This document shows positions 21,480 through 61,715 of a stretch of DNA of 64,000 nt, piece by piece; positions within the stretch are counted from its first letter, which is position 1; each line of letters opens with the position of its first letter. Origin of the DNA: Isosphaera pallida ATCC 43644. GTDB lineage: Bacteria > Planctomycetota > Planctomycetia > Isosphaerales > Isosphaeraceae. The stretch covers positions 4,058,450 through 4,122,449 of the forward strand of contig NC_014962.1 of assembly GCF_000186345.1 (NCBI RefSeq). Reading direction: 5' to 3'. The notes below the pieces were generated by a model. It searched no databases and had not been told where the DNA came from. It saw only the letters and a list, made by a program, of their open reading frames with translations. Both the position numbers and the translations under genes were made by a program.

Positions 21480-21966
21480 GGAGAGGTCTCCGTCTCGAAC
21501 CGGGAAAGCGTCAACCAGCGATGGCGGTGATTCGAGGGATGGATCGACCACGCACGGGAGCCACCCTCGGGGTGATCTCTTGTCCCATGTGTTGTATCAC
21601 AACGGCTCGCCGGACGAAACGAGACACCGCCCCCAACGACGGCAACCGATCCCGCCTCACTTGATTCGGTTGGATGACCGCTCCCTCCTAGACAACCCAA
21701 CCAAGCTGCTCTTTCTAACAAACCGGCATAATCCACCTTTTTGATTAAGGCGCGCGAAATCCTAGGTCGATGGTTTTATGGACGATGACTTGACATCGAA
21801 TCACGTCCCGCTCGGTTTCGAGATCTCCTGGTGTGTTCGAGTCACCTTGGATGGACGGATCGACGCGGTGGCACGCAATGCTCGTCAAACCATAGTTGAA
21901 ACTTCTGGGCGAGCGGAGCGATGTTCGCCGTCTGGACACGACCTTTGGTCTGGCATGGAGACGGTC
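21480..21966. other. Divergent intergenic region upstream of the barrel gene
   Basis: About 490 bases. The frame of the barrel gene is open from 21778 but the part before 21967 lacks coding character. The 21690-21800 part is AT-richer and may hold promoters; no clear -35/-10 pair. No gene is supported. Confidence 0.35.
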
Positions 21967-24573
21967 ATGAACCCCACGCGCACAGTCACGCTGACTCCGC
22001 ATCAACAGCGAAAGCGATCCGTCTTGATGATCTCAGGCGCGTTGGCTCTTGGTGCACTCATGGCAGCGACAGGACGCGCGGCCCAACCGCCTGTTCCCCC
22101 CACGCCTCCTTCACGCGACTCAGCGCTGGTTCCTCCCCCCGCACCACCGCCCCGGACATTCGGAGCAGACATCCTTTTGTTTGAAAACATGATTTTAAGC
22201 GATAACGTCATCCTTCCTCCTCTTCCTTTCGAGCGGATCGACGAGATCAACAACCAAGACGCGGCCGATGAGCCAACGCTGATTCCCGAGGCGACACCAG
22301 GCCAGGGTGTTGATCAGGTGGATCCCCCCCTGCCATTCGCTTTGGCCGAACCAATGGCGGCTCCTCCAACGATCCTGAGAATTCCTCCCACAACTTCCCT
22401 GGCGTTTGGCGAGGGGGTGGCCCGGGTCAAGCCGGCGAAGATGGCCAGAGGTTTGCGGGTCGATCCGTTCGGAACCACGACGCGCGGCGTTGTGACGCCT
22501 CCCCGAGGGTTCCCCGCGGTTGTCTTTGAGCGTGATGCTGAGGGACGCCCGGTCCCCCGACCAATGCCGATTCCTGCCGGTCCCGTTCGAGAGGGGGTCG
22601 AGCTGGTCACGCCGCCCCAACCGATCGAACTTGGCGGGAATCGACGCTCCTTGAGCACTGCGGCAAACCAACCGATCACCGCGACCGACGCTGGCGGCTT
22701 GATCGAGGCGACCCCGCCTCTGGCCGGCACCGAGGCCGAGGCCAATCAGGAGCGGCTTGACCGCGCTCGGGAAACTCTGCCGGGGCTGTTGCGTCGTCCG
22801 GTCTTTGATGGTCCGCCACCTTCACCCCGCAACCTCCGGGCCGAAACTCGTCCCGACCTGGTGGAGACATTTCCGCCGTTGCAAACCCCGCGCGACCCTC
22901 CGTTGGGCTTCACCGGTCCCTCGGGCGTGCTGCCCACCGAGGTACAGGGACGCAGTGGCTTCGCGCCGATCGAGGATCGCTGGCGTTTGGGCTTCCCCGC
23001 CTGGGACCGATACGGCACCGAGTCTAAGTTGCTCAAGCCCGAGCCAGACAAGGACCGGCCCTACGAATTGGGACGATGGTGGGACCCCTACAACCAAAAT
23101 GTCTTCAAGGGCGATTATCCAATTCAAGGTCACCATCTTTTCTTTGAGGTGGACGCGACTAGCCTTACGATCAACGAGGCGCGGGACATCCCCACCGCGA
23201 CGACCCCGCGCGACTCGACAGTCCGTCCCGGTCAATTCGAGTTCTTTGGTCGAGGCGGTCAATATCTGTTCAATCAGTTTGGCTTCGTGAGGATGCGGTT
23301 GTTCCACGGCGCGGGGGCGTTCAAGCCGGTCGATTGGCAGGTGGTGTTGACCCCGGCGTTCAACGTCAACTACCTGCTGGCCCAGGAACTCGGCGTGGTC
23401 AGTCCCGACGTTCTGGCGGGCACCCAGCGGTTGCGTTCGTTCTTCACGTTGCAGGAGTGGTTCGTCGAGACCAAACTGGCTGACACGTCGCCTTATTTCG
23501 ATACATTGGCGCTTCGGGTCGGTCAGCAGTTTTTCAACGCCGACTTCCGGGGCCACATGTTCGTGGACGTCAACCGTGGCGTGCGGCTCTTCGGCAGCCG
23601 CAACGCCAACCGCGACCAGTTCAACCTGGCGGTCTTCCTTCAGGCCGAGAAGGACACCAATTCCGGGCTGAACACTTTTCACAACCGGGGTCAAACCCTG
23701 GTGATCGCCAACTACTACCGTCAGGATTTCGGCATTCCCGGCTACACCGCCTCCTGGAGTTTTCTGTATAACAACGACCAACCCTCGCTCAAGTTCGATA
23801 CCAACCGCTTCCTAGTGCGGCCCGACCCGGTGGGCGTGGCCCGTCCCCATGAAGTCAACGTGTTCTATCTCGGCTTCGGTGGCGACGGCCACCTCGGGCG
23901 CTACAACCTCAGCCACCAGTTTTATTGGGCGCTGGGATACGACGAACTCAATCCGCTGGCCAACCGCGCCACCAACATCAGCGCGCAGTTTTTCGCCTGC
24001 GAACTGTCCTATGACCGCGACTGGGCACGGTTCCGCACCTCGTTCCTCTACGCCTCGGGAGATGGCGACGCCAACGACGGACGGGCGGGCGGCTTCGATT
24101 CGATTCTCGACCTGCCCAACTTCGCTGGGGGCAGGTTCAGCTTCTTCCAGCGCCAGCCGTTGCCGTTATTCGGAGTCAACCTCACTCAGCGCGAGAGCTT
24201 CGTGACCAACCTACGCTCCAGCAAGACCCAGGGCCAAAGCAACTTTGTCAATCCCGGGTTGTTGATGCCCAACGTCGGTTTGGACATGGACCTCACGCCG
24301 CAGCTCAAGCTAATCAACAATTGCAATTTCCTCTGGTTTCACAAGATCGACCCGCTCAAGCAGTTCCTCTTCAGCTCCAACGTCAACCATTTCGTGGGGG
24401 TCGATCTCTCCACCGGTTTGGAATGGCGGCCCTTGCTGTCCAACAACATCATCGTCGAGGCGGGGGTCAACGGTCTGTTGCCGGGTTTGGGCTTCCGCAC
24501 CCTGTACAATGACCTTCAAAGTCCGGCCAACGCCTTGGTCTCCGGTTTTGTGGAAGTGATCTTGACCTATTGA
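21967..24573 (+). CDS. Outer-membrane beta-barrel (porin-like) protein
   Basis: An 868-residue exported protein. The ATG at 21967 is preceded by GGAG at 21957-21960, a clean ribosome site, and by a signal peptide (VLMISGALALGALMAA, cleaved after a small residue near ATGRAA). Residues 40-370 are Pro-rich and low in structure. From about 380 to the end the sequence alternates polar and aromatic residues in short strands with loops, as in outer-membrane barrels, and ends VSGFVEVILTY with a terminal Tyr, typical of the last strand. It most resembles porin or alginate-export type barrels in layout. The next gene, 362 bases on, is a multiheme cytochrome, so it could be the barrel of an electron-transfer conduit. 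Substrate and assignment are inferred. Confidence 0.8.
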   Translation: MNPTRTVTLTPHQQRKRSVLMISGALALGALMAATGRAAQPPVPPTPPSRDSALVPPPAPPPRTFGADILLFENMILSDNVILPPLPFERIDEINNQDAADEPTLIPEATPGQGVDQVDPPLPFALAEPMAAPPTILRIPPTTSLAFGEGVARVKPAKMARGLRVDPFGTTTRGVVTPPRGFPAVVFERDAEGRPVPRPMPIPAGPVREGVELVTPPQPIELGGNRRSLSTAANQPITATDAGGLIEATPPLAGTEAEANQERLDRARETLPGLLRRPVFDGPPPSPRNLRAETRPDLVETFPPLQTPRDPPLGFTGPSGVLPTEVQGRSGFAPIEDRWRLGFPAWDRYGTESKLLKPEPDKDRPYELGRWWDPYNQNVFKGDYPIQGHHLFFEVDATSLTINEARDIPTATTPRDSTVRPGQFEFFGRGGQYLFNQFGFVRMRLFHGAGAFKPVDWQVVLTPAFNVNYLLAQELGVVSPDVLAGTQRLRSFFTLQEWFVETKLADTSPYFDTLALRVGQQFFNADFRGHMFVDVNRGVRLFGSRNANRDQFNLAVFLQAEKDTNSGLNTFHNRGQTLVIANYYRQDFGIPGYTASWSFLYNNDQPSLKFDTNRFLVRPDPVGVARPHEVNVFYLGFGGDGHLGRYNLSHQFYWALGYDELNPLANRATNISAQFFACELSYDRDWARFRTSFLYASGDGDANDGRAGGFDSILDLPNFAGGRFSFFQRQPLPLFGVNLTQRESFVTNLRSSKTQGQSNFVNPGLLMPNVGLDMDLTPQLKLINNCNFLWFHKIDPLKQFLFSSNVNHFVGVDLSTGLEWRPLLSNNIIVEAGVNGLLPGLGFRTLYNDLQSPANALVSGFVEVILTY

Positions 24574-24935
24574 GCCGGACGGGTCATGCTCCCCATGCTC
24601 CATTCGCCGGAGGGGGCGGGGTCCGCACCGTCGGGACGGGGGAGGTTGGGCACCACGCGCTCGGGAACCGTGGCCCTGGCTTCTCGGACCTCGACCCCCT
24701 TCGTATGGCTCCCTTCCCAGTCTTGCAGCGCGTCGTTGTGAGCCTCCTTATAACAGCGCGGTCCAGGAAGAGATGACCTTGACCGCGTCTGCAGCGCCCG
24801 GCAGTCAGTTCCTTGGCCGGAGCTGCCGGACGCACCGAATCGTCCACGACGTTGGTCCGGCACCTCTCGTCGCATCCAGTTTGGTTGATCCCACCCCCCT
24901 ATCCGACTCGATCCGGTCAAGGAGGACCCATCGTC
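24574..24935. other. Gap between barrel and cytochrome genes
   Basis: No supported gene. The frame of the cytochrome gene is open from 24813, but the real start is 24936. It may hold a promoter for the cytochrome gene or merely join the two genes. Confidence 0.35.
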
Positions 24936-27900
24936 ATGTTTCCCGTTCGCGTGAGGGTTCATCGTTGCTGGAATCGTGCCCTGGTGATTGCCATCCTCGC
25001 GCTGGCGGCGGGAACTGTCCTCGGCCCTTGGATCAGCCGTGGGCTGGGTGTTGGTCCGGGCAACGCGATTAAACGGGTCGCGTTGGTTCCGAACAGCTTG
25101 CCGCAACCCGTTGCCGTCTTCGAGCCAGTCGAGGCCCCGGGTTCGACCCCCGCGCCGAACGCCCCAACCCCGCTGGCCGGTCCTCATTCTGGAGCCGGTT
25201 GGCGCGGCGTGAGGGGCCACGGTCACGGCTCGCCCCACGGCGGCGGGCGTCCCGACGACCTTGCGACGGGACCAATCGGCGATCCCTACCCGATGCCTCC
25301 CGAACTCGTCGGGGTCAGGCTCAACGAGCAGTCGGACGAGTCGATCGCCCTGAAAAGCGCGGGGTGCGTCCAGTGCCATCGAGGGGTGGGTAACCCCCAC
25401 GCCAAGGATACGGTGCGTTTAGGTTGCGTCGATTGTCACGGCGGCAACGCGCAAACCGATCAAATCGAACTGGCCCATGTGCAACCACGTCATCCCCACC
25501 TTTGGCCCTCCTCGGCCAACCCGGTGCGGTCCTACACCCTGTTGAACCAGGAGTCGCCGGAGTTCATCCGGTTCGTCAATCCCGGCGACTTGCGGATCGC
25601 CCACATCTCCTGCGGCACAGCCGGTTGCCACGCCGAAACCGTCCATGACGTTCGCAAGAGCATGATGACCCACGGGGCGATGCTTTGGGAAGCGGCGTTG
25701 TACAACAATGGGGCCGTCCCCTTCAAGCAAGCGCGTTACGGCGAAAGCTACAGCATGTTCGGCACGCCGCAACGTCTGCAAACCGTGCCGCCGCCGAGCC
25801 CTGAGGAGATTCGGGACAAGGGAATTTTGCCCTACCTCGACCCGTTGCCCAAATTCCAGGTGACGCAACCAGGGAATTTGCTGCGGATCTTCGAGCGCGG
25901 TGGGCGATTCGCCGCCGGAGAGATCGGCATCCCCGAACGTCTCGAGGAGACCGGACGCCCCCGCCAGCGTCTTTCAACCCGAGGTCTGGGAACCGGCACC
26001 CGCACCGACCCGGTCTTCCTTGGCTTACAGAAAACCCGTCTGCTTGACCCGACCCTCAACTTCTTGGGCACCAACGACCACGCCGGCGACTACCGCTCCA
26101 GCGGCTGTACCGCCTGCCATGTGGTCTACGCCAACGACCGCTCGCCGGTCCATTCCGGCCCCTTCGCCGTTTACGGCAACGAGGGCAAGAGTTTTTCCGT
26201 CGATCCGATGATCCCCAAGGACGAGCCCGGCCACCCAATCGAACACCGCTTCGTCTGGGCACCGCCCACCAGCCAGTGCAACGTCTGCCACATCCACCCC
26301 GGCACGACGGTCATGAATTCCTACGTCGGGTTCATGTGGTGGGATCTCGAAACCGACGGCAAGTTCATGTATCCGCCGGTTGAGCGAGAACTCACCGCCG
26401 AGGAATTCATCAAAGCGCAGATGTCCGACCCCAACGAAGCATCGGCCCGCGGTCTGTGGTCCAACCCTGAGTTCCTCAAGCGAGTCGCCGAACTCAACCC
26501 AATGCTTGAACATACCCAGTTTGCCGACTTCCACGGCCACGGCTGGGTCTATCGCGCAGTGTTCAAGAAAGACCGCAAGGGTCAATTGCTCGACGCGGCC
26601 GGCAACCTGATCGAGAAGAACACCACCGAACTGCTCAATGCGGCGATGGTCCCCCCCTCCCCCGACGAGATTCTCAACGGCAAGGAATGTCGCAACGGCG
26701 TGCCGCTGCATCTGATGGACATCCACATGGAAAAGGGGATGCACTGCGTCGATTGCCACTTCGCCATCTCGGGCCACGGTAATGGCAAACTCTACGGGGA
26801 AGTGCGCAACGCCATTGAAATTCAGTGCATCGATTGCCACGGCACCTCACGCGCCTACACCACCTTGAGGACCTCCGGCCCCGCCTCGCCGCCGGGTGGG
26901 ATGGACCTGGCCTCGTTGCGCTCCCCGTGGGGAGGCTTGCGGTTTGAGTGGATCGAGGGCAAGCTCTACCAGCGTTCGATGGTCACAGAGGGGTTGGAAT
27001 GGGAAGTGGTCCAGACCAAAGATTCAATCACCCCTGGCCATGAACACTACAACCAGAAGTCGCACCACGCCAAGACCGTTCGGTTCAATGACCAGGGCGA
27101 CATCGTCTGGGGCGACTTGCCCCCCGCCAACAGTCCGGCCCCATATGACGACGACCAGTGCGCCCACTCCTACAAGGAAATGAGTTGCATCGCCTGCCAC
27201 TCCTCCTGGAACCCCAGTTGCTACGGCTGCCACCTGCCCCAAAAGGCTAACCTCAAGCTGCCCGAACTGCACAACGAGGGAGACGTCAGCCGCAACGGCA
27301 TCGCCTACAACTGGCAGACTCTACGCGACGACGTGTACATGCTGGCCCGCGATGGCCATGTCACCGGCAACCGAATCGGCCCGTCACGCTCCAGCTGCGC
27401 CATTCACGTCGGCTCGTACAACGACAAGCGCGAGTCGATCTATGTCCAGCAGCAAACCATCTCCGCCGAAGGACTCAGCGGCATCGCCTTTTCGACCAAT
27501 GTGCCACACACCGTCCGCGGCGGCCCACCCACCGGTCCCGACGGTCGCGCGCTCAACCCCGCCAACTACCTGCCGGGTCGCAACGAAACCAAACAATGCA
27601 CTGATTGTCATGTATCTATCAACGATGACAACAACGCGATCATGGCTCAGCTGGTGATGCAGGGGACTGGTGCCCTCAACTTTATCGGTCGCTACGCCTG
27701 GGTGGCCGCCGGCGAGGAGGGCCTGCTGGCCGTTGCCGTCACCGAACGGGACGAACCCCAGACGGTCATCGGCTCCACCATGCACAGGATGGTTTATCCC
27801 CAGCGCTACGCCAAGCATCTTGCCAAGGGCAAGGAGCTGGAGAACGCCTATGAGCATCCTGGCGTCGATATCATCGATGGGTTGCTCAAGCGGTTCCGCC

Positions 27901-29099
27901 AAACCGAGATCTTGTCGGTCCAAGCGCGGGGTGAATACCTCTACGCCGCCTGCGGCGAGGGAGGAATGAGGGTCTTCGACATCGCTTTCATCGACCACAA
28001 AGGTTTCTCCGAGCGGATCACCACCGCGCCGGTGTCCCCGTTGGGCCAACGGTTCTTCGTTCGCACCAAGGATTGCCGCGACGTGGCCGCCCCCACCACG
28101 ATCGCGCCTGACCCAACGCGAACCCATCGCCCTGAAAACATGGAGCAAGCCGTTCATCCCGTTTACGCCTACCTCTATCTGGCCGACGCCGAGGAAGGGC
28201 TGATTCTGGTGGGGGCTGGAACCCTTCTGGACGGCGACCCTACCAATAACTTCCTGAAGCGCGACTTGACCTTCAACCCTGGCGGGCTGCTCCACGGGGC
28301 GCGACGGGTCAAGATCGTGGGTCATTACGCCTACGTCTGTTGCGACGCGGGCCTGGTGATCGTCGATCTGGACACCCCCACCGAACCCAAGATCACCGCG
28401 ATCCTCGGTCACGAGTCAGGAGTGCACCGTCCGGTCGATGTGGCGGTGCAGTTCCGCTACGCCTTCGTGGTGGACGCCGACGGTCTGCAAACCTTGGACG
28501 TCACCGACCTCGCCCATCCTCGGACGATTCCCGACGCCGAATTTCCCATCGACGACGCCCACCGCATCTATGTCGCCCGCACCTACGCTTACCTTGCCGC
28601 CGGACATCACGGCCTGGTGATCCTCGACGTAGAAAACCCCGAACGGCCCCGGCTCGACCAGATATTCAACGACGACGGCAAGATCAACGATTTACACGAC
28701 GTGCAACTCGGCATCACGTACAACAGCCAATTCGCCTATCTAGCCGACGGACGCAACGGCTTCGTGGTTGTCCAACTCACGTCGCCCGAAACCCCCGGCA
28801 ACGACGGCTTCTCGCCCCGACCGACTCCCGAAGTTGTCGCCCACCACGAGATCCCCAACGGCGGTCACGCCCTGGCCATCTCGCGTGGGCTGGACCGCGA
28901 CCGCGCCGTGGACGAATCGGGCCATCAAATCGCCGTCTTCGGGCGGATCGGCGCGCGGCCGCTCAACCGCGAGGAGCTGCATCGGCTTTACATCAAAAAC
29001 GGCTGGCTCTGGAAGGTCTCCGACGATCCCCAGGCTTCGATCTACCGCTACCAACCCCCGGCGGGCGAGACTAAGGTGACGGTTCCGCCCGCGCCTTGA
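24936..29099 (+). CDS. Multiheme cytochrome c with LVIVD beta-propeller
   Basis: A 1387-residue exported redox protein. ATG 24936 follows GGAGG at 24921-24925. A basic N-terminus and hydrophobic segment (ALVIAILALAAGTVLG) act as signal or anchor, followed by a Gly/His-rich stretch (HGHGSPHGGG). Nine CxxCH heme-binding motifs are visible between residues 144 and 892 (CVQCH, CVDCH, CTACH, CNVCH, CVDCH, CIDCH, CIACH, CYGCH, CTDCH), plus one CxxxCH (CGTAGCH) near 226. From about 900 the chain turns into repeated beta-propeller units with LVIVD-type strands (YVCCDAGLVIVDL, AAGHHGLVILDV) to about 1340. Such LVIVD fusions are known in planctomycetes. The protein should act outside the cytoplasmic membrane in electron transfer. 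Its partner and electron acceptor are unknown. Confidence 0.93.
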   Translation: MFPVRVRVHRCWNRALVIAILALAAGTVLGPWISRGLGVGPGNAIKRVALVPNSLPQPVAVFEPVEAPGSTPAPNAPTPLAGPHSGAGWRGVRGHGHGSPHGGGRPDDLATGPIGDPYPMPPELVGVRLNEQSDESIALKSAGCVQCHRGVGNPHAKDTVRLGCVDCHGGNAQTDQIELAHVQPRHPHLWPSSANPVRSYTLLNQESPEFIRFVNPGDLRIAHISCGTAGCHAETVHDVRKSMMTHGAMLWEAALYNNGAVPFKQARYGESYSMFGTPQRLQTVPPPSPEEIRDKGILPYLDPLPKFQVTQPGNLLRIFERGGRFAAGEIGIPERLEETGRPRQRLSTRGLGTGTRTDPVFLGLQKTRLLDPTLNFLGTNDHAGDYRSSGCTACHVVYANDRSPVHSGPFAVYGNEGKSFSVDPMIPKDEPGHPIEHRFVWAPPTSQCNVCHIHPGTTVMNSYVGFMWWDLETDGKFMYPPVERELTAEEFIKAQMSDPNEASARGLWSNPEFLKRVAELNPMLEHTQFADFHGHGWVYRAVFKKDRKGQLLDAAGNLIEKNTTELLNAAMVPPSPDEILNGKECRNGVPLHLMDIHMEKGMHCVDCHFAISGHGNGKLYGEVRNAIEIQCIDCHGTSRAYTTLRTSGPASPPGGMDLASLRSPWGGLRFEWIEGKLYQRSMVTEGLEWEVVQTKDSITPGHEHYNQKSHHAKTVRFNDQGDIVWGDLPPANSPAPYDDDQCAHSYKEMSCIACHSSWNPSCYGCHLPQKANLKLPELHNEGDVSRNGIAYNWQTLRDDVYMLARDGHVTGNRIGPSRSSCAIHVGSYNDKRESIYVQQQTISAEGLSGIAFSTNVPHTVRGGPPTGPDGRALNPANYLPGRNETKQCTDCHVSINDDNNAIMAQLVMQGTGALNFIGRYAWVAAGEEGLLAVAVTERDEPQTVIGSTMHRMVYPQRYAKHLAKGKELENAYEHPGVDIIDGLLKRFRQTEILSVQARGEYLYAACGEGGMRVFDIAFIDHKGFSERITTAPVSPLGQRFFVRTKDCRDVAAPTTIAPDPTRTHRPENMEQAVHPVYAYLYLADAEEGLILVGAGTLLDGDPTNNFLKRDLTFNPGGLLHGARRVKIVGHYAYVCCDAGLVIVDLDTPTEPKITAILGHESGVHRPVDVAVQFRYAFVVDADGLQTLDVTDLAHPRTIPDAEFPIDDAHRIYVARTYAYLAAGHHGLVILDVENPERPRLDQIFNDDGKINDLHDVQLGITYNSQFAYLADGRNGFVVVQLTSPETPGNDGFSPRPTPEVVAHHEIPNGGHALAISRGLDRDRAVDESGHQIAVFGRIGARPLNREELHRLYIKNGWLWKVSDDPQASIYRYQPPAGETKVTVPPAP

Positions 29100-47905: not shown

Positions 47906-49621
47906 ATGGCCACAGTCAAAGGCGATTGGACCGATATCCTCGTCAAACGAGGGGTGGTCGGACCCGATCAAATCCGGGAAGCCCAGCGCATGGGTGGGGT
48001 GGAGGTCGAAGAGGCCCTCGTCAAGCTGGGCTACGCCACCCCCGAGGAGATCACCAAAGCCAAAGCGCTTCAATACGGTGTACCCTACGTCTCGCTGAAC
48101 GAGATCACCATTCCCCCCTCGGTGATCGAACTGGTCCCCGAGTCAATCGCCCGGGAGAACCTGGTTATGCCCATCGCCGAAGCCGGCAGCGCGATCCAGG
48201 TGGCGATGTGGAATCCGGTCGATTTTGAGACCATCGACAAGCTCCGGTTCGTCCTCAACCGCGACATCGAAATCGCCCTCGCGCCCAAGGAGACGATTCT
48301 GGAGGCGATCGACCAATATTACGGCAACACCACCTCCGAGACCGAGTCGGTGGACTCGATGCTCCAGGAATTCACCGATACCGCGATCGACTACATCGAC
48401 GACGGCGGCGGCTCCAAGAGCCTGATGTCGGGCGTGGCGATGGAGGAAGGGGACGCGCCGGTGATCCGGCTGACCCACATGATCATCCAGGAGGCGGTCA
48501 ACATGCGGGCCTCCGACATCCACATCGAACCCTTCGAGGATCGGGTCCGCATCCGCTACCGGATTGATGGAGTCTGCATCGAGCGCGAAAACCTGCCCCG
48601 GCGTCTGTTGGGCTCGGTCATCAGCCGGCTCAAGATCATGGGTTCGATCGACATCGCCGAGAAACGACGACCCCAGGACGGCCGGATTAAGCTTCAACTT
48701 CAACAGAAGGAAATCGACCTGCGGGTCTCAATCATCCCCACCTCGCACGGCCAGTCGTGCGTCATGCGGATCCTCGACCGGGACAACATCAAGGTCGGCC
48801 TCCGCGACCTCGGCTTCGGCGAGGAGGACTGGAAACGGTTCTCCCAACTCATCCGCCGACCCAACGGCATTCTGCTGGTCACCGGCCCCACAGGTTCAGG
48901 GAAAACCACCACCCTCTACGCCGCCCTCAACGAACTCAACCGCCCCGACACCAAAATCATCACCGCCGAGGACCCCGTCGAATACTACCTGCCCGGCATC
49001 AATCAGTGCGAAGTCAAAGCCAAAATCGGCATGACCTTCGCCCGGATCATCCGCGCTATGCTGCGGCAGAATCCCAACATCCTGTTGGTCGGAGAAATCC
49101 GCGATAAAGAGACCGCCGAAACGGCGATTCAAGCCTCCTTGACCGGACACTTGGTTTTCAGTACGCTGCATACGAACGACGCGCCCAGCGCCATTACACG
49201 GATGGTGGATATCGGGGTGCAGCCGTTCCTGGTGGCAAGCTCGGTCATGGGGATCATGGCCCAACGTCTGGTCCGCAAGGTCTGCCCCAAGTGCAAGGCC
49301 CGCTACGAACCACCCGCTAGCCTCTTGAAGTCGCTGGGTCTGCGTCCCGAACTGGCCAAGAAGGCCAACTTCATGAAAGGCAAAGGCTGCACCCACTGCA
49401 ACGGCACTGGCTACCGCGGCCGAATGGGTATCTACGAACTGATGACGATGACCAGCCAAGTCCGCGAACTGACGTTCAAGGGCGCGCCTACTCAGGACAT
49501 CCGTAAACTCGCCCGCCAACAAGGGATGCGCACGCTGTTCGAGGACGGGATGATCAAGGCCATCAAGGGTCTGACCACCATCGAGGAGGTGTTGCGAATC
49601 ACCAACCGCACCGAAGCTTGA
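47906..49621 (+). CDS. pilB: PilB/GspE-type assembly ATPase
   Basis: A 571-residue hexameric ATPase that drives pilus or pseudopilus assembly. Residues 1-160 form an N-terminal MshEN/GspE_N domain (EEALVKLGYATPEEITKAKA). The catalytic part begins near 190 with ASDIHIEPFEDRVRIRYRID. The Walker A is GPTGSGKTTTLY near 330, the Asp box is AEDPVEYYLPG, the Walker B LLVGEIRDKETAE and the His box HTNDAPSAITR. Four cysteines, CPKC near 460 and CTHC near 495, form the zinc-binding arm typical of PilB and GspE. It is first of the locus and has GGGAG upstream. The next gene, pilT, follows after 707 bases, so it is probably a separate transcript. Confidence 0.95.
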   Translation: MATVKGDWTDILVKRGVVGPDQIREAQRMGGVEVEEALVKLGYATPEEITKAKALQYGVPYVSLNEITIPPSVIELVPESIARENLVMPIAEAGSAIQVAMWNPVDFETIDKLRFVLNRDIEIALAPKETILEAIDQYYGNTTSETESVDSMLQEFTDTAIDYIDDGGGSKSLMSGVAMEEGDAPVIRLTHMIIQEAVNMRASDIHIEPFEDRVRIRYRIDGVCIERENLPRRLLGSVISRLKIMGSIDIAEKRRPQDGRIKLQLQQKEIDLRVSIIPTSHGQSCVMRILDRDNIKVGLRDLGFGEEDWKRFSQLIRRPNGILLVTGPTGSGKTTTLYAALNELNRPDTKIITAEDPVEYYLPGINQCEVKAKIGMTFARIIRAMLRQNPNILLVGEIRDKETAETAIQASLTGHLVFSTLHTNDAPSAITRMVDIGVQPFLVASSVMGIMAQRLVRKVCPKCKARYEPPASLLKSLGLRPELAKKANFMKGKGCTHCNGTGYRGRMGIYELMTMTSQVRELTFKGAPTQDIRKLARQQGMRTLFEDGMIKAIKGLTTIEEVLRITNRTEA

Positions 49622-50328
49622 GTCGCCCCGCGTCTCCAGGATCCGCCTTCAAGGCCCTAATCGCGCTCTCGCCGCGTGGCGCTTCCTCGGTCGCGGGATC
49701 AACCGGACACCACCCCCCGGGCGTGGAGCTGCGCGGCGGATCGCCGCCCTGCCCCGCCAGCGTCGTGGTGGCAAGCTGATCGGCTCGCAACAGAGCCGGG
49801 GCCGGTAGGACCAGCGGTCGAGGCTCCAACGTTCAATTTCCGAGTCGGTTTTGCCCAGGTCGATGGGCATCGCCATAATGGGGGTGTGGCGGGCTGAACT
49901 CGTCGCGGGTTCCACCCTCCCACTCCCTTCTCGCGTGTCGTGCAGCAGGTGGATTCAAGACCACGGACGACCGGGCCGAGGTTGATTGTCCACCCAAGCC
50001 CCGACGCGAACGCTCCTCTCTCTCAATTCGATTCGTTTGTTCTGGTCTTCGTTCTCCATGACGCCCGATTGGTCCGCCGGGTCGCCACCCTCTCCGCCTC
50101 GACGAGAGGTCGAGGCGGCTGCGTTGGTGCTGTTTTCGTCGTCCATTCCGCGACCCAACGACGGTCCGCCACGCTCTGGATCCCGCACGACCGTTGGATG
50201 GGGTGGGTCGCCGCGCCACCCGTCACGCGAGCGGGTCGCTGGATCGTTGGGACTGCCCGATCGGCCCGGACGACGAAACGGGAGGCATGGTTCTCACGCG
50301 ACAACGCGGAAGGAAGGATGAATCTGTC
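49622..50328. other. Gap between pilB and pilT
   Basis: The largest gap in the window. It has a small hairpin, CGGCTC-GCAACA-GAGCCG, at 49781-49798, and several GC-driven open frames without coding character. No gene supported. Confidence 0.35.
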
Positions 50329-51459
50329 ATGGGTACGGTACTCATCGACAAGCTGCTCCAGGCGGTTGTCAACTTCAAGGCCAGCGACCTGCACCTCACG
50401 GTCGGCCAACAGCCGACCCTACGGTTGCACGGCCACATGAAGCAACTCAACACCAAGGTGTTGGAGCCGGCCGACACGGTCGGCCTGATGAAGTCGATTA
50501 CCCCGGAACGCTGTCAGCAGGAACTTCAAGAGGTCGGCGGGACCGACTTCGGCTTCGCCTTTGGTGACCAAGCCCGCTTTCGAGTCGCCGTCTTCAAACA
50601 GCGCGGTAATGTAGGGCTGGTGCTGCGACGCATCCCCAACGAGTTCCTCACCTTCGAGCAACTCGGCCTGCCCACCGTCATCACCGACCTCATCCAGCGT
50701 CCCCGCGGCCTCATCCTGGTCACCGGCCCCACCGGCTCGGGCAAGACCACCAGCCTGGCCTCGATGATCAATTGGCTCAACAACAACCTCGACCGTCACA
50801 TCATCACCATCGAAGACCCCATCGAGTATTATCACAAACACAATAAGTCGCTGGTCAACCAACGCGAGATCGGTGTGGATGTGCCCGACTTCCCCGAAGC
50901 GATCCGCCGCGCCCTGCGGATGGACCCGGATATCATCCTCGTCGGCGAGATGCGCGACCTGGCCACCATCCAAGCCGCGATCACTGCCGCCGAAACCGGC
51001 CACATCGTGTTCGGTACCCTCCACACCAACTCCGCCGAAGGGACCGTCAACCGGATCATTGACGTGTTCCCGAAGGAACAGCAGGACCAAATCCGCACCC
51101 AACTCTCGGTGGCGATTATCGGTATCCTCGCCCAAACCCTGCTGCCCCGCAAACCTAAGGGCCTCATCGCCGCCTACGAAATGCTCGTCGTCACCCCCGC
51201 CGTCGCCAACCTCATCCGGGAAAACAAAACCTACCGCATTGACTCCATGATCCAAACCGGACGCAAATACGGCATGATCCTCATGGACGACTCACTCTAC
51301 AACCTTTGGCGGCAGGGACTCGTGGACGAACACGAAATCATCTTCAAAGCCCGCAAACCCAACGAATTGCGGCAACGGATCGAAAACGCCAAAAAAGGCA
51401 TCTTCGAAGAAGAACCCGAGGAACAAGATCAGGAGGATGTCAACTCCAAACGGCGCTAA
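50329..51459 (+). CDS. pilT: PilT-type retraction ATPase
   Basis: A 376-residue ATPase that depolymerises type IV pili and powers twitching. ATG 50329 is chosen because AAGGAAGG lies about 11 bases upstream and because MGTVLIDKLLQAVVNFKAS is the normal PilT start; the frame is open 45 codons further. KASDLHLTVGQQPTLR is the family N-domain. Walker A is GPTGSGKTTSLAS near 140, the Asp box EDPIEYYHKH, the Walker B LVGEMRDLATI and the His box TLHTNSAEGTVNR. A C-terminal acidic extension (EEEPEEQDQEDVNSKR) is longer than usual. It lies between two PilB-type genes. Its presence points to a dynamic type IV pilus rather than a plain secretion system. Confidence 0.95.
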   Translation: MGTVLIDKLLQAVVNFKASDLHLTVGQQPTLRLHGHMKQLNTKVLEPADTVGLMKSITPERCQQELQEVGGTDFGFAFGDQARFRVAVFKQRGNVGLVLRRIPNEFLTFEQLGLPTVITDLIQRPRGLILVTGPTGSGKTTSLASMINWLNNNLDRHIITIEDPIEYYHKHNKSLVNQREIGVDVPDFPEAIRRALRMDPDIILVGEMRDLATIQAAITAAETGHIVFGTLHTNSAEGTVNRIIDVFPKEQQDQIRTQLSVAIIGILAQTLLPRKPKGLIAAYEMLVVTPAVANLIRENKTYRIDSMIQTGRKYGMILMDDSLYNLWRQGLVDEHEIIFKARKPNELRQRIENAKKGIFEEEPEEQDQEDVNSKRR

Positions 51460-51691
51460 AGTCAACGACCACCCCGACTTCTCCACCCACCCGGTTGAGT
51501 GCCACCACTTGGTATCCCTCGCGCGATCCAGCCCCCCCGGGAACCAAGCGGCTTGATCACCCACCAACGCCAACCTCCAACCCGTTCGTTCGTCCTTCAC
51601 GACGACAACAACGACGACGCGAACGCAACCGCAGATCAAAACCAGATCGAATGAGACCCTTTTCCTTCACCCTGGATCCGAGGCGTTCCCG

Positions 51692-53410
51692 ATGGCCCGC
51701 AAACTCGGCACCATCCTCATGGACATGGGATACATCGACGAGGACGCCCTTTGGAAGATCCTCGACGCCCAAAAAGCCTCCCCGACCGGCGAACTGACCG
51801 GCCAGGTCGCGGTGCGCCTGGGTTTGGTCACCGAGGAACAGGTGCTCAAAGCCCTGTCCGAACAACTCGGCATGAAGGTTCAGCGGCTACCCAGCGACCT
51901 GACCATCCCCCAGGAGGCCGTCGCAGCCATCGATAAGACGATGGCCCAAGCCTTCAAGGTGGTGCCATTCACCGTCTCCAAGAAGGATAAGTCGGTCACC
52001 GTGGTCATGGCCGAACCCCAAAACCCCGCCACCCTCGAAAGCCTCTCCACCTTCCTCGGCGTGCCGGTCCACGGCCTCATCGGCCTGGAGCAGGAGGTCA
52101 AGGACGCTCAAGAACGCATCTACGCTGGTAAACAAGAAACCTTCGCCGACGTCATCCAGGAAATCGCCAACGACAAGAACCTCGCCCAATACGCCAACCG
52201 CAACGAAAACACCATCGACATCGAAGCGATCGAGGAAATGGCCGAAGCCGCCCCGGTCCGCAAGCTGATCAACATGGTGTTGTTGCTCTCAATCCGCGAC
52301 AAAGCCTCCGACATCCACTTCGAACCCTTCGAAGAGGAATACAAGATGCGCTACCGGGTGGACGGCGTCCTCTACGAACTGGTGCCCCCCCCCCGCCACC
52401 TCGCCCCGGCGATCGCCTCGCGGATCAAAGTTATGTCCAACCTGGATATCGCCGAACGACGGTTGCCTCAAGACGGCCGCATCCAACTGGCCCTGGGCGG
52501 CAACGCCGTGGACATCCGGGTCTCCACCCTGCCCACCCTCTTTGGCGAAAGCGTGGTGCTGCGGATCCTCGACCGCACTGTGGTCAACCTCGACCTGCGC
52601 AAAATCGGCATGCCGTCGGACACCCTGGCGCAATGGATGGAACTCATCAAGAAACCCAACGGCATCATCCTAGTCACCGGCCCCACCTCCTCAGGCAAAA
52701 CCACCACGCTTTACGCCACCCTCAACGAACTCAACAGCATCGAGGATAAAATCATCACCACCGAAGAGCCCGTCGAGTACGACATCGACGGCCTGATCCA
52801 AATCCCAGTCAACCCAGAAATCGGCGTCACCTTCGCCGCCTGTCTGCGGGCCATTCTGCGTCAAGACCCTGACAAGATCCTGGTGGGCGAAATCCGCGAC
52901 CTCGAAACCCTGGAAATCGCCGTCCAAGCCTCGCTCACCGGCCACATCGTCTTCTCCACCCTGCACACCAACGACGCCCCCTCCGCCGTCACCCGGCTGC
53001 GCGACATGGGCCTGCCCACCTTCCTCATCACCGCCACCACCGAAGCGGTCCTGGCCCAACGTCTGGTCCGCAAAATCTGCCAGTTCTGCAAAACCGAATT
53101 CACCCCCAGCCCCGAACAACTCATGGAACTGGGCTACTCCCCCGAAGAAGGAGCCACCAAGAAGTTCTACTACGGCCGGGGCTGCGACAAGTGCAACAAC
53201 ACCGGCTTCAAAGGCCGCATGGGGATCTTCGAACTCCTCATCATGAACGAGACCCTGCGGGATATGATCGTCTCCGAATGCTCGCTTGACGAATTCCGCA
53301 ACGCCTGCCGCAAATTCGGCATGCGCACCCTGCGCGAGGCAGGCCTCAAAGCCATCCATGAAGGCGAAACCACCATCGAGGAGGTCGTCCGCGAAACCAT
53401 CATCGACTAA
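51692..53410 (+). CDS. Second PilB/GspE-type ATPase with MshEN motif
   Basis: A 572-residue ATPase, paralogous to the one at 47906. ATG 51692 has GAGG 8 bases upstream. The N-terminal part, RKLGTILMDMGYIDEDALW followed by ILDAQK, fits the MshEN consensus that in other ATPases binds cyclic di-GMP; a second similar unit, RLGLVTEEQVLKALSEQLG, follows. The catalytic part has Walker A GPTSSGKTTTLY (Ser in place of the usual third Gly), EEPVEYDIDG, LVGEIRDLETLE and HTNDAPSAVTR. The zinc arm is CQFC near 465 and CDKC near 500. It is next to pilC, 388 bases upstream. Which ATPase serves the pseudopilins downstream is not known. Confidence 0.94.
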   Translation: MARKLGTILMDMGYIDEDALWKILDAQKASPTGELTGQVAVRLGLVTEEQVLKALSEQLGMKVQRLPSDLTIPQEAVAAIDKTMAQAFKVVPFTVSKKDKSVTVVMAEPQNPATLESLSTFLGVPVHGLIGLEQEVKDAQERIYAGKQETFADVIQEIANDKNLAQYANRNENTIDIEAIEEMAEAAPVRKLINMVLLLSIRDKASDIHFEPFEEEYKMRYRVDGVLYELVPPPRHLAPAIASRIKVMSNLDIAERRLPQDGRIQLALGGNAVDIRVSTLPTLFGESVVLRILDRTVVNLDLRKIGMPSDTLAQWMELIKKPNGIILVTGPTSSGKTTTLYATLNELNSIEDKIITTEEPVEYDIDGLIQIPVNPEIGVTFAACLRAILRQDPDKILVGEIRDLETLEIAVQASLTGHIVFSTLHTNDAPSAVTRLRDMGLPTFLITATTEAVLAQRLVRKICQFCKTEFTPSPEQLMELGYSPEEGATKKFYYGRGCDKCNNTGFKGRMGIFELLIMNETLRDMIVSECSLDEFRNACRKFGMRTLREAGLKAIHEGETTIEEVVRETIID

Positions 53411-53798
53411 GCCCCCGGCCCGCCCCGACCCGCCCTCCGGCATTCGTCCCAACTTTCCCCCCAACGCCGCGTCACGACCCCCACGCCGCCGCGTAATCAA
53501 GGCGTGGGAACCTCGCTCGGGACGCCCTTACGGGCTCACCCTGGCCCCATCCTCCTCGCCGGAGGGATCCCTGGTTCCATCGGTCGTTGCCGTATCCTTC
53601 ATCGTTACCGTTGGTCCCGCCCGGTCGTTCCGGGACCCGTTTCCTCAACACCTGGTTATCCCCGCAAAGCGCCCCGCATCGTCTGAACGACCGCCCGATC
53701 ATTCCGCCTCCATCGACACAAGCTGATTCTCGGTTCATTTCATTTCATTCATCCCGGCCCAAGACATTCCCACCCCTCCGGCGAGGAGAACCCGGCCC
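53411..53798. other. Gap before pilC
   Basis: No gene supported. It should hold the pilC promoter or a leader; the site GAGGAG lies just before the pilC start. Confidence 0.35.
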
Positions 53799-55046
53799 AT
53801 GCCGACCTATCAATATGAAGCCCTCGACGCGACCACCGGCAAGGAGGTCAAGGGCACCATCGAAGCGGCGAACCCCAACGAAGCCCAAACCCTCATCAAG
53901 CAGAAACAGTATTTCGTCACCAAGCTCACCGAACGGACCGTCAAGGCCACCAAGTCGACCAAGACCCAGAAAGTCGGCCGCAAGCGGAAGAAGTCCTTTA
54001 CCATCGGCGGCCTGTCCAACAAGAAACTGTGCCTCTTCACCCGCCAACTCTCCACCCTCCAGGACGCCGGCCTGCCGATCCTCCGCTCGCTCAAAATCCT
54101 GGAAAACCAAGCCAAGCCCGGCGTACTCAAAAACGTGCTGGGCGACGTGGTCGAAGACATCGAATCCGGCTCGACCCTCTCGGAGGCGATGGCCAAACAC
54201 CCCAAAGCCTTCGACCGCCTCTACTGCAACATGATCAAGGCCGGTGAGGCCGGCGGCGCACTAGAGACCATCCTCCAACGCCTCGCCGACTTCAAGGAAA
54301 AAGCCCAAAGCCTTCGCCGACGCATCAAAGGCGCGATGGTCTACCCCATCGTGGTCATCTTCGTTGCCTTCGTCATCGTTGGCTTCATCCTCTACTTCAT
54401 CATCCCCAAGTTCGAAGCGATCTTCAAAGACTTCGACGTGGACCTGCCCCAAATGACCATCTGGCTGATCGAAGCCAGCCACATCATCATCGAATACGCC
54501 CCCCTTGTGATCCTCTCGCCAGTCTTCTTTTGGCTCTTCATCAAGCTGCTATACAAGATGCGCTGGGGTGCCTATATGTGCGACTGGATCCTCTTGCGCA
54601 TCCCGGTCCTGGGCCAGATTGCCGGTAAATCGACCGTGGCCCGCACCATGCGGACCTTGGGCACCCTGGTGCAATCCGGCGTGCCGATCCTGGAATCGCT
54701 CAACATCGTCCGCGACACCGCAGGCAACGCGGTCTACGAACGGGCCTTCACTAAGGTCTACGAGTCGATCCGCGAAGGGGAAACCATCGCCCAGCCGCTC
54801 AAGGAAGCCCGGGTGGTGGACGACATCGTCATCAACATGATCGACGTGGGCGAGGAGACCGGCGACCTTGATACCATGCTGATGAAAATCGCCGACAACT
54901 ACGAGGAAGAGGTCGAAACCTTGGTCGAGTCGCTGGTGAGCCTGCTTGAACCCGTCATGATCGTCGTGTTGGGCGGCATCATCGGCTTCATCGTGATCGC
55001 CCTCTTCCTGCCGTTGATCCAACTCATCACCAAGCTGTCCGGTTGA
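53799..55046 (+). CDS. pilC: PilC/GspF-type platform protein
   Basis: A 415-residue inner-membrane platform protein for pilus or pseudopilus assembly. The N-terminal start MPTYQYEALDATTGKEVKG is typical. Two GspF domains are seen: LCLFTRQLSTLQDAGLPILR near 80 and VARTMRTLGTLVQSGVPILE near 280, each followed by helical segments. Three transmembrane segments lie near 185 (VVIFVAFVIVGFILYFII), 235 (LVILSPVFFWLFIKLLY) and the C-terminus (MIVVLGGIIGFIVIALFL). A basic linker (KSTKTQKVGRKRKKSF) is at about 50-65. ATG 53799 has GAGGAG about 11 bases upstream. A strong hairpin follows the gene. Confidence 0.95.
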   Translation: MPTYQYEALDATTGKEVKGTIEAANPNEAQTLIKQKQYFVTKLTERTVKATKSTKTQKVGRKRKKSFTIGGLSNKKLCLFTRQLSTLQDAGLPILRSLKILENQAKPGVLKNVLGDVVEDIESGSTLSEAMAKHPKAFDRLYCNMIKAGEAGGALETILQRLADFKEKAQSLRRRIKGAMVYPIVVIFVAFVIVGFILYFIIPKFEAIFKDFDVDLPQMTIWLIEASHIIIEYAPLVILSPVFFWLFIKLLYKMRWGAYMCDWILLRIPVLGQIAGKSTVARTMRTLGTLVQSGVPILESLNIVRDTAGNAVYERAFTKVYESIREGETIAQPLKEARVVDDIVINMIDVGEETGDLDTMLMKIADNYEEEVETLVESLVSLLEPVMIVVLGGIIGFIVIALFLPLIQLITKLSG

Positions 55047-55064
55047 CCCCCCCGCCCTCACCCC

Positions 55065-55108
55065 CCAACGGACGCAGGCGGGGCACGCCCCCCCCCCGCG
55101 TCCGTTGG
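55065..55108. terminator. Strong hairpin between pilC and first pseudopilin
   Basis: CCAACGGACGC (55065-55075) and GCGTCCGTTGG (55098-55108) pair perfectly over 11 bases. Inside it GGCGGGG and a C-run can pair again. It lies 18 bases past the pilC stop and 95 before the next start. No T-run. It could end pilC transcription or lower the expression of the pseudopilin genes relative to it. Confidence 0.55.
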
Positions 55109-55202
55109 ACTTGACCCTCATGGGACGACTCCCGAGGGATCGGTCCTCACGTCCCATCGCCCTTTTTTCACGGACCTTGTCTTGACGAGCGAGGATGACG
55201 CG

Positions 55203-56300
55203 ATGAACTGTCCGGGAGAACCGCACCAACCCCCGAACCTCCGCCGACGGGCCGGGTTCACTCTGGTCGAACTGCTGGTGGTCATCACGATCATCGGCAT
55301 CCTGATTGCGCTCTTGGTCCCGGCGATCTCTGGCGTGGTCCGCAACGCCAACGAAGGGTCGGTCATTTCCGAAATCAACGCGCTGGGCCAGGCCCTGGCC
55401 GACTTCAAGGCCAAGTACGGCGAATATCCCCCCAGCCGGATCATCATTCCGGCCAATGGCAACTACACGCCGCTTCGGGCGATGACCACGAACCCGATCG
55501 ATCCGAGCGTCTTCTTCGGCACCGTGCCGCCGGTCGTCGGCATCGGACCCAATGAGTCCATCGCCGCTCTGGCGGAACGCTCCGAACGATTTATGCGCAA
55601 GTTCTTCCCGCGCGGTTACATGACCTCGATCACCCAAGTGAACAACGACACCAGGGTGTTCTACCTCACCGGCGACGAATGCCTGGTCTTCTTCCTGGGC
55701 GGCATCCCGGTCAACAACGGCGGCACCTGGGAACTGACCGGCTTCAACAACAACCCCCAACAGCCCTTCCGGCCCGGCGGCAACCGCTCCGAACCTTTCT
55801 TCGAGTTCAAACCCAACCGCCTGGTGGACCTCGACGGCGACGGCTTCCCCTCCTACATCGACAACCTCGGCACCGACTCCGACGCCCGTCCCTACGCCTA
55901 CTTCGTCTCCTACGGCAACGGCGACTACGACCCCAACGACGTCAACTTCGGCCCCGACTTTGTGGGCGAAGCCTTCGGGGTCCCGTTCTCGGTCGGCGGC
56001 ACAACCAGCAACCCCGTCCTACTCGGATCGCCCGGCCCTAACCCTTACACCTCTTCACGTAACGTCGTCGTCAACGGCATGGCGCTGGCCCGTCCCGCCT
56101 ACCTCAACCCCAACTCGTTCCAGATCATCTCCGCCGGCCTGGATCGGTTCTACGGCTTCGGCGGGGCGTTCCTCAGCAACTCCTCCGAGAAGTTCCCCTT
56201 CGTTAACAACAACGCCCAAGACTTGCCCAACGAGTCGGCCTTCCGCGTCACCGTCGAGGCCGACAATCTGACCAACTTCAACACCTCCCGGCTCGACTAA
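55203..56300 (+). CDS. GspG-like pseudopilin, large
   Basis: A 365-residue prepilin-like protein. ATG 55203 has GAGG 8 bases upstream. The leader MNCPGEPHQPPNLRRRAG ends at G18; cleavage before F19 leaves FTLVELLVVITIIGILIAL with the conserved E at position 5, so it is a class III signal for a PilD/GspO-type peptidase. The mature protein has one N-terminal hydrophobic helix and a large globular domain, about twice the size of usual GspG. Residues 209-220 read DLDGDGFPSYID, a calcium-loop type sequence, followed by PYAYFVSYGNGDYD and FQIISAGLDRFYG, which match the GspG C-terminal region. It begins the pseudopilin set. Confidence 0.88.
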   Translation: MNCPGEPHQPPNLRRRAGFTLVELLVVITIIGILIALLVPAISGVVRNANEGSVISEINALGQALADFKAKYGEYPPSRIIIPANGNYTPLRAMTTNPIDPSVFFGTVPPVVGIGPNESIAALAERSERFMRKFFPRGYMTSITQVNNDTRVFYLTGDECLVFFLGGIPVNNGGTWELTGFNNNPQQPFRPGGNRSEPFFEFKPNRLVDLDGDGFPSYIDNLGTDSDARPYAYFVSYGNGDYDPNDVNFGPDFVGEAFGVPFSVGGTTSNPVLLGSPGPNPYTSSRNVVVNGMALARPAYLNPNSFQIISAGLDRFYGFGGAFLSNSSEKFPFVNNNAQDLPNESAFRVTVEADNLTNFNTSRLD

Positions 56301-56583
56301 GTGATGAAGTGACGCCTCCGGTCACATCCCAACAGGTTCTCCGTTGTGATGATGACCTTGGGCTGGAAACCCTCAGGCCACCTTGGCCAACCCCGCCATG
56401 GGAGGAGCTCGGCAGGCGATTCCTCCCTGGCCATTCCCCGCTCGCTTTTCCACCGTCGGTGCGTCGGTTTCTCCACCGCGCCGATCGGTCGGAGAGCGAC
56501 CAAACTACGGGCCCCACGGCCCCACCCCATCTTGTCCTGACCCATTTTTCCTTTCAACCCCCCGCGTGGGAGTGACCCAAGCG

Positions 56584-61615: not shown

Positions 61616-61715
61616 TCTGATCTGATCCGTTTTCATCGCGTTTCACCGCGTCCCCTTCCATCTTCCTCTTCCCCCACGATCCACCCTGTCCCCGCGAAGC
61701 GAAGGACGACCGTCT

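Follow-up and report, generated by a model that had tools for sequence, protein, structure and literature searches.

The outer-membrane beta-barrel gene and the adjoining gene for a decaheme c-type cytochrome with a C-terminal LVIVD propeller, here termed BAR and CYT, probably encode the outer-membrane end of an electron-transfer system that spans the cell envelope and resembles PCC4, a reading drawn from gene content to which we assign a probability of roughly 0.6. Both genes lie in the window (the whole stretch of 64,000 nt that was analysed), which corresponds to C2:4058450-4122449 of a genome of 5,529,304 bases in two contigs, C2 comprising 5,472,964 bases. An electron-conduit role had been proposed in an earlier note on this DNA; it is now much likelier than from adjacency alone because an inner-membrane and periplasmic heme chain is supplied by the neighbours of related genes and by two other main loci of the same genome, whereas the AlgE-like fold of the barrel, with approximately 18 strands in its model, speaks against it. 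If the reading is correct, many supposed ordinary heterotrophs (planctomycetes, acidobacteria and Sphingobium) would possess a complete line for electron exchange with the outside, and its barrel would be of a type different from that of the conduits compared here.

Structure of the barrel and of the decaheme cytochrome

BAR is encoded on the forward strand at 21967..24573 (868 aa from this ATG), within an ORF of 21778-24573 (+), and is represented by homologues in other genomes. The ATG at 21967 precedes a putative signal peptide (MNPTRT...GRAAQ, assigned by eye), which is followed by a Pro-rich stretch of about 290 aa, the barrel domain (23137..24570, +) and a terminal Tyr; the long Pro-rich N-terminus and the terminal Tyr that had been described earlier are thus both present in the translated ORF. 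The AF2 model, for which all 37 rows of the alignment were used, reached a pLDDT of 83.5 and a pTM of 0.82 and displays approximately 18 long strands by our own count from the DSSP string. Its top structure match was AlgE (PDB 5d5d; Z 28.9, rmsd 2.9, 360 residues aligned), and the fold is common to BAR and this alginate exporter (5d5d, 3rbh), although the two share only 12% identity and BAR, unlike AlgE, has a partner cytochrome. AlgE is an export barrel, and the AlgE/OprD-like fold is known from exporters and substrate channels. In sequence searches with BAR (P0001), neither Pfam, its Alginate_exp family (PF13372) included, nor NCBIfam gave a match at E<=1, and PDB sequence matches were at chance level only (E 0.17), while PF13372 was matched by 6/37 members of the BAR family at E<=1 (best E 4.1e-5). 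The designation of the barrel as 'porin-like' therefore holds for its AlgE/OprD-like fold but not as a family match.

According to its model, BAR is an AlgE-type barrel of about 18 strands and not of the MtrB type, and an MtrB-type sheath was rejected on account of the strand number and the best match. MtrB and other conduit proteins were absent among the 50 structure matches listed for BAR, an absence that in itself excludes nothing. Since BAR is too unlike the MtrB sheath, the MtrB mechanism cannot be borrowed for it; furthermore, the AlgE-type fold calls for caution, as BAR may instead admit a substrate of CYT, or display CYT.

CYT (24936..29099, +; 1387 aa), defined by its motifs, Pfam match, relatives and AF2 model, gave a single match when the window's genome was searched with it. 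Its ten-heme region (residues 144-892; 25365..27611, +) carries nine CxxCH motifs, in agreement with the earlier note, and a tenth that had been miscounted as CxxxCH and is in fact CxxxxCH (C226-x4-C231-H232; 25611..25631, +). All ten motifs are conserved. This irregular motif is likely a real heme site, because its two Cys and its His are invariant in an 18-row alignment and most rows from outside the Isosphaeraceae have CxxCH in the same columns. Within the heme region, which holds about 75 residues per heme, 13 His residues outside the motifs are conserved at >=0.85 (155, 181, 433, 437, 454, 533, 535, 592, 597, 614, 744, 779 and 858); these would suffice for bis-His ligation of all ten hemes, as an upper-bound argument and not as proof. 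A lipobox was detected in 13/76 homologues by a crude regular expression, from which over-extended ORF starts may hide true lipoboxes.

The C-terminal propeller (approximately residues 918-1322; 27687..28901, +) that had been recognised earlier is supported both by a match to LVIVD (PF08309) of 72.5 bits, above the gathering cut-off of 20.2, and by the AF2 model of residues 141-1340 (pLDDT 85.4, pTM 0.90), which was built from 56 of the 77 available rows, loci with less than 93% coverage having been left out of this alignment and of that for BAR. The propeller matches the YVTN propeller 1l0q (Z 18.9, rmsd 2.2, 276 residues), and all Foldseek and VIA matches listed for the CYT model are propellers and repeats.

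Two identities were considered for CYT and rejected. Octaheme and pentaheme nitrite reductases have a CxxCK catalytic heme. The CYT profile matches octaheme nitrite reductase weakly (E 1.1e-4) and in short stretches only, and it matches both this enzyme and NrfA weakly around one heme pair; no CxxCK-type motif occurs in CYT, ten of its ten motifs ending in CH, and a pentaheme or octaheme nitrite reductase identity was discarded on these grounds. ExtM (NCBIfam NF040943) is similar to short stretches of CYT, but the score of 59.5 bits falls far below the curated cut-off of 800 bits, and membership of that family was likewise dismissed.

Pairing and distribution of the two genes

BAR lies directly before CYT on the same strand, as had been noted, with 362 bases between the genes. 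Strong CYT relatives were detected in 23/45 genomes of the family (Isosphaeraceae) and in 36/343 genomes of the Planctomycetota, some of them matched partly or in pieces, mostly on short contigs; 'strong' in the phylum denotes E<=1e-150, a cut-off chosen once the break between 1.1e-154 and 7.7e-26 was apparent. BAR was found in 22/45 family genomes and in the identical 36/343 phylum genomes, in phylum searches that scored only a few candidates in each genome (2 with protein queries and 6 with the IMP alignment, see below). Both genes are present in 21 of the 24 family genomes that have either; CYT occurs without BAR in G020 and G035 and BAR without CYT in G022, three assemblies of approximately 490-590 contigs and at most 89% completeness. 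Where both are present, BAR is located immediately upstream of CYT on the same strand in 16/21 family and 32/36 phylum genomes. Of the remaining genomes, four have the genes on other contigs, four have them 5-8 kb from each other on one strand and one has them in divergent orientation. The Fisher p values for this co-occurrence (1.4e-9 in the family, 1.3e-49 in the phylum) are inflated by shared ancestry. Additionally, the distances among BAR and among CYT sequences correlate (Mantel r 0.868, n=56 pairs, 0/2000 permutations), the pairs being those with both HMM scores above 600 plus the window and two plasmids.

In a wider scan of genome contigs, at least 585 CYT relatives were found. The best 80 of these belong, by their record titles, to Planctomycetota, Acidobacteria, Rokubacteria, Binatia, Nitrospirae, Verrucomicrobia, Ignavibacteriae and others, and BAR is present at 59 of these 80 loci, the other 21, often on short contigs, being without BAR in the available DNA. 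Among plasmids, CYT was matched over >=80% of its length in 13 records (12 Sphingobium and one Sphingopyxis) at 42-45% identity. The earlier note had held that its proposal would fall if the two genes failed to co-occur in other genomes; they are found together, and mostly adjacent, across phyla. The only point in favour of chance neighbours with unrelated roles is the 362-base gap without overlap, against which stand the identical distribution over 343 genomes and the direct adjacency in 32/36, so that coincidence has a negligible probability and is refuted by the shared distribution and conserved neighbourhood. The pair is no accident, chance being excluded because CYT is conserved across the family, the phylum and at least 585 relatives.

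Several further observations concern these sequences and the window itself. At 1e-10, CYT matches were obtained in 93/343 phylum genomes, of which the 57 beyond the strong 36 match in parts only, some by heme parts and some by the propeller alone; the heme-part matches often fall in open frames of approximately 800-1450 aa, which may represent a sister cytochrome family. At G040:C1:6243648-6250989, CYT is split into three pieces that lie apart, two of which contain an in-frame stop, pointing to a damaged copy or an error of assembly. Scans for promoters and terminators gave no clear excess over shuffled sequence (3 vs 1.5 and 8 vs 8.5, respectively). In the window, 47906-63746 holds a run that by eye resembles type IV pilus or type II secretion genes in translation, with two GspE/PilB-type ATPases, PilT, PilC and several prepilin-like proteins.

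Partner genes and the proposed electron line

The neighbourhoods of BAR and CYT share a recurrent set of genes. Its cytochromes are of the 4- and 5-heme c554 type and of a 10-heme type whose N-terminal part includes a hydrophobic stretch. The other products are an HbpS-like double-domain protein (PF03928), a di-heme-b-type, inner-membrane-type protein (IMP), a class III cyclase protein, a fused NuoEF and a NuoG-like Fe-S protein carrying cyclic-nucleotide (cNMP)-binding domains. Among the best 80 of at least 585 loci, counted from 40 bits and many of them cut by contig ends, the HbpS-like gene was found at 37, the 4/5-heme genes at 31, the 10-heme gene at 26, IMP at 24, the NuoG-like gene at 19 and NuoEF at 7; some neighbour ORFs are in the wrong frame owing to greedy picking, and the HbpS count above all is perhaps too high. 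The HMMs were built from 25 (BAR), 30 (CYT), 17 (HbpS), 12 (4/5-heme), 6 (10-heme), 6 (IMP), 5 (NuoG), 5 (cyclase) and 3 (NuoEF) members, and antisense matches of 'f2' to the window were treated as artefacts and left out. The HbpS-like gene is often divergent from BAR (L109, 4572-6707, and similar loci), and in some planctomycetes its product carries LExRxLL close to the N-terminus.

In the family, the 4/5-heme cytochromes are present in 22/23 CYT genomes and one other, and IMP in 21/23 CYT genomes and two others. In the phylum, at E<=1e-20 (a threshold chosen after inspecting the matches), IMP was found in 21/36 CYT genomes and two others, leaving 15/36 without it. As BAR and CYT occur without IMP in these 15 and IMP occurs without CYT elsewhere, the pair may work without IMP, or IMP was missed; IMP thus appears not to be obligatory, or is not always found. 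None of the partner genes lies within the 64,000-nt window. The window's genome has all of the cytochromes, IMP and the Fe-S/NAD(P)H module, and its three main loci are that of BAR and CYT, C2:4599-4610 kb with NuoEF-like, NuoG-like/cNMP, IMP, 10-heme and 4-heme genes, and C2:870-873 kb with a 4- and 5-heme pair; an HbpS-like gene, which scored 610.6 bits against the HbpS HMM, is found at C2:842 kb. The parts of the proposed line, their motifs, their co-occurrence and their linkage are in this way established at the level of genes.

A compact form occurs on a plasmid of S. herbicidovorans, where 4-heme, HbpS, BAR, CYT, 10-heme, IMP and cNMP/Fe-S genes lie within 17 kb, without a separate NuoEF. 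The Sphingopyxis plasmid carries the 4-heme, HbpS, BAR and CYT genes, and the 10-heme, IMP and Fe-S genes were not found within its 14 kb stretch. Since the set resides on plasmids of named Sphingobium strains, the function of a PCC4-like cluster is testable by gene deletion. On the S. herbicidovorans plasmid pMSHV (L265, 452-8605), a ShlB/FhaC-type two-partner-secretion transporter gene directly precedes the electron-transfer genes beside a gene for a 2092-aa protein without Pfam match, and a surface partner could be encoded there.

From these genes we infer the cofactors and places of the parts, the order of the chain and the position of CYT at or across the outer membrane. In the cytoplasm, NAD(P)H or a soluble pool would exchange electrons with the NuoEF-like flavoprotein and the NuoG-like Fe-S protein with its cyclic-nucleotide-binding domains, and this module in turn with the di-heme-b-type IMP in the inner membrane. 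IMP would pass electrons to and from the membrane-anchored 10-heme cytochrome, which would be connected through the 4- and 5-heme c554-type periplasmic cytochromes to CYT, which BAR would hold at the outer membrane. CYT would then exchange electrons with an extracellular partner in either sense, by uptake from or delivery to the outside; BAR would open the outer membrane for CYT or for its electrons, and the propeller may be a docking face for the extracellular partner or for BAR.

It is tentatively suggested that this line is gated by cyclic nucleotides, because cNMP-binding domains were present in 8/8 Fe-S proteins scanned (L113, L179, L226, L243, L265, L231, L209 and L251) and cyclase or phosphodiesterase genes occur in some clusters. 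The Fe-S proteins of L243 (Nitrospirae), L251 (Nitrospira) and L265 (Sphingobium) have a pyridine-nucleotide oxidoreductase domain in addition. Some planctomycete clusters have class III cyclase genes nearby; cyclase-family genes were seen at 5/41 first-round loci and at 10/80 loci by HMM (>40 bits; best 80 of at least 585), three being confirmed as Guanylate_cyc by Pfam and several of the 10 scoring only 94-174 bits, and none was seen in the examined stretches of the window's genome. On each of the two Sphingobium plasmids examined, the 10-heme gene adjoins a gene for a calcineurin-like phosphoesterase, annotated as CpdA in TomTYG65. The possible, though doubtful, outcome would be a widespread outer-membrane electron gate in which an AlgE-type barrel and a propeller-capped decaheme are fed by a cyclic-nucleotide-controlled Fe-S flavoprotein, with cAMP or cGMP opening and closing the envelope line.

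Against BAR and CYT as the terminus of such a line stand the AlgE-like fold, the IMP-less genomes (15/36), the occurrence of IMP without CYT (2 genomes in the phylum, 2 in the family), the short set on the Sphingopyxis plasmid, the lack of partner genes in the window and the presence of a lipobox in only 13/76 homologues. The main rival explanation is that CYT is a periplasmic redox enzyme that reduces or oxidises some small or humic-like compound, with BAR as its substrate porin and the heme chain simply supplying it from the inner membrane. The relation of the BAR fold to exporter and substrate-channel families is consistent with such a role, as are the low heme density of CYT (approximately 75 residues per heme) and its short similarity to ExtM, and the weak similarity to octaheme nitrite reductase, shared with NrfA around one heme pair, makes an enzymatic role conceivable. 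However, the CxxCK-type motif is absent and the conserved distal His candidates are enough for all hemes; furthermore, the inner-membrane set is that of the extracellular electron-transfer clusters proposed in the available text on PCC4, and we regard the enzyme explanation as rather unlikely.

BAR could also export or anchor CYT so that it is displayed at the cell surface, without forming a sheath around it, CYT itself bridging outward. That AlgE is an export barrel, that BAR and CYT diverge so closely together (Mantel r 0.87) and that some CYT homologues carry a lipobox (13/76, by regular expression) all agree with display, and the propeller would suit surface docking; yet a channel of about 18 strands would be too narrow for a folded protein of 1200 residues, and this explanation is accordingly rated improbable. 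The trans-envelope terminus is hence retained as the preferred reading of BAR and CYT.

Comparison with known systems

The MtrAB, MtoAB and PioAB conduits resemble BAR-CYT in that a barrel gene lies beside a ten-heme cytochrome gene and in the proposed flow of electrons across the outer membrane. MtrB is a barrel of 26 strands. It is thus a much larger barrel, sheathing a small decaheme, than the AlgE-like BAR with its approximately 18 strands. In the available text of He et al. 2017, MtrB is given 28 transmembrane regions and its compact, wire-like decaheme partner about 33 residues per heme (PMC5566968), in contrast to the 1387 aa, approximately 75 residues per heme and additional propeller of CYT; neither a 26-28-strand barrel nor a compact decaheme is therefore present here. 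The verrucomicrobial clusters, likewise from the PVC group, also place a porin next to multiheme cytochromes, which differ from CYT, by description only, in having eight heme sites and no propeller described in the available text (PMC5615132). In Desulfovibrio ferrophilus, multiheme cytochrome genes are likewise clustered with NHL beta-propeller genes, but the propeller is a separate gene and the available text reports no apparent porin-cytochrome conduit (PMC9769857). Within the text of the open-access literature, judged in part by listing, no fusion of a decaheme cytochrome to such a propeller was found, and neither was any text linking multiheme proteins, porins and extracellular electrons with cyclic-nucleotide binding, or Sphingobium with multiheme proteins and extracellular electrons.

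The closest counterpart is PCC4, a bioinformatic proposal comprising a porin, 4-, 5- and 10-heme cytochromes and an IMP of five transmembrane helices in which SGXXG is combined with two copies of WX3HX13H, a motif signature given for PCC3 and PCC4 alike; in its subgroup II the IMP gene has an Fe-S gene (pfam13247) on its upstream side, the carriers include Planctomycetes and no extracellular multiheme cytochrome belongs to it, according to the available text (He et al. 2017, PMC5566968). The available text names no propeller-fused decaheme and contains neither 'cyclic' nor 'cNMP', and the 10-heme protein of PCC4 may be either the membrane-anchored one or CYT (PMC5566968). As far as the same text goes, PCC4 and the BAR-CYT set have in common the porin gene, the 4-, 5- and 10-heme cytochromes, the IMP motifs and, putatively, a pfam13247-type Fe-S protein by IMP, a likeness of gene content and IMP motifs, and they differ in that the set is split over several loci in the window's genome. 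A porin gene beside a multiheme cytochrome gene is found in BAR-CYT itself, and other loci of the window's genome encode proteins with 4 and 5 heme motifs (C2:0.87 Mb) and proteins with 4 and 10 (C2:4.60-4.61 Mb). The IMP of that genome contains both WX3HX13H motifs and SGXXG by pattern search, as by eye does the alignment of six relatives. For PF13247, the Fe-S protein of the window's genome scored 24.7 bits and that of L113 scored 25.3, both slightly below the cut-off of 26.2; the domain reached 39-44 bits in L243, L251 and L265 and was not listed at E<=1e-6 for L226, L231 and L209. On this comparison of gene content, the barrel with its propeller-fused decaheme would be a variant of the PCC4-like kind already proposed.
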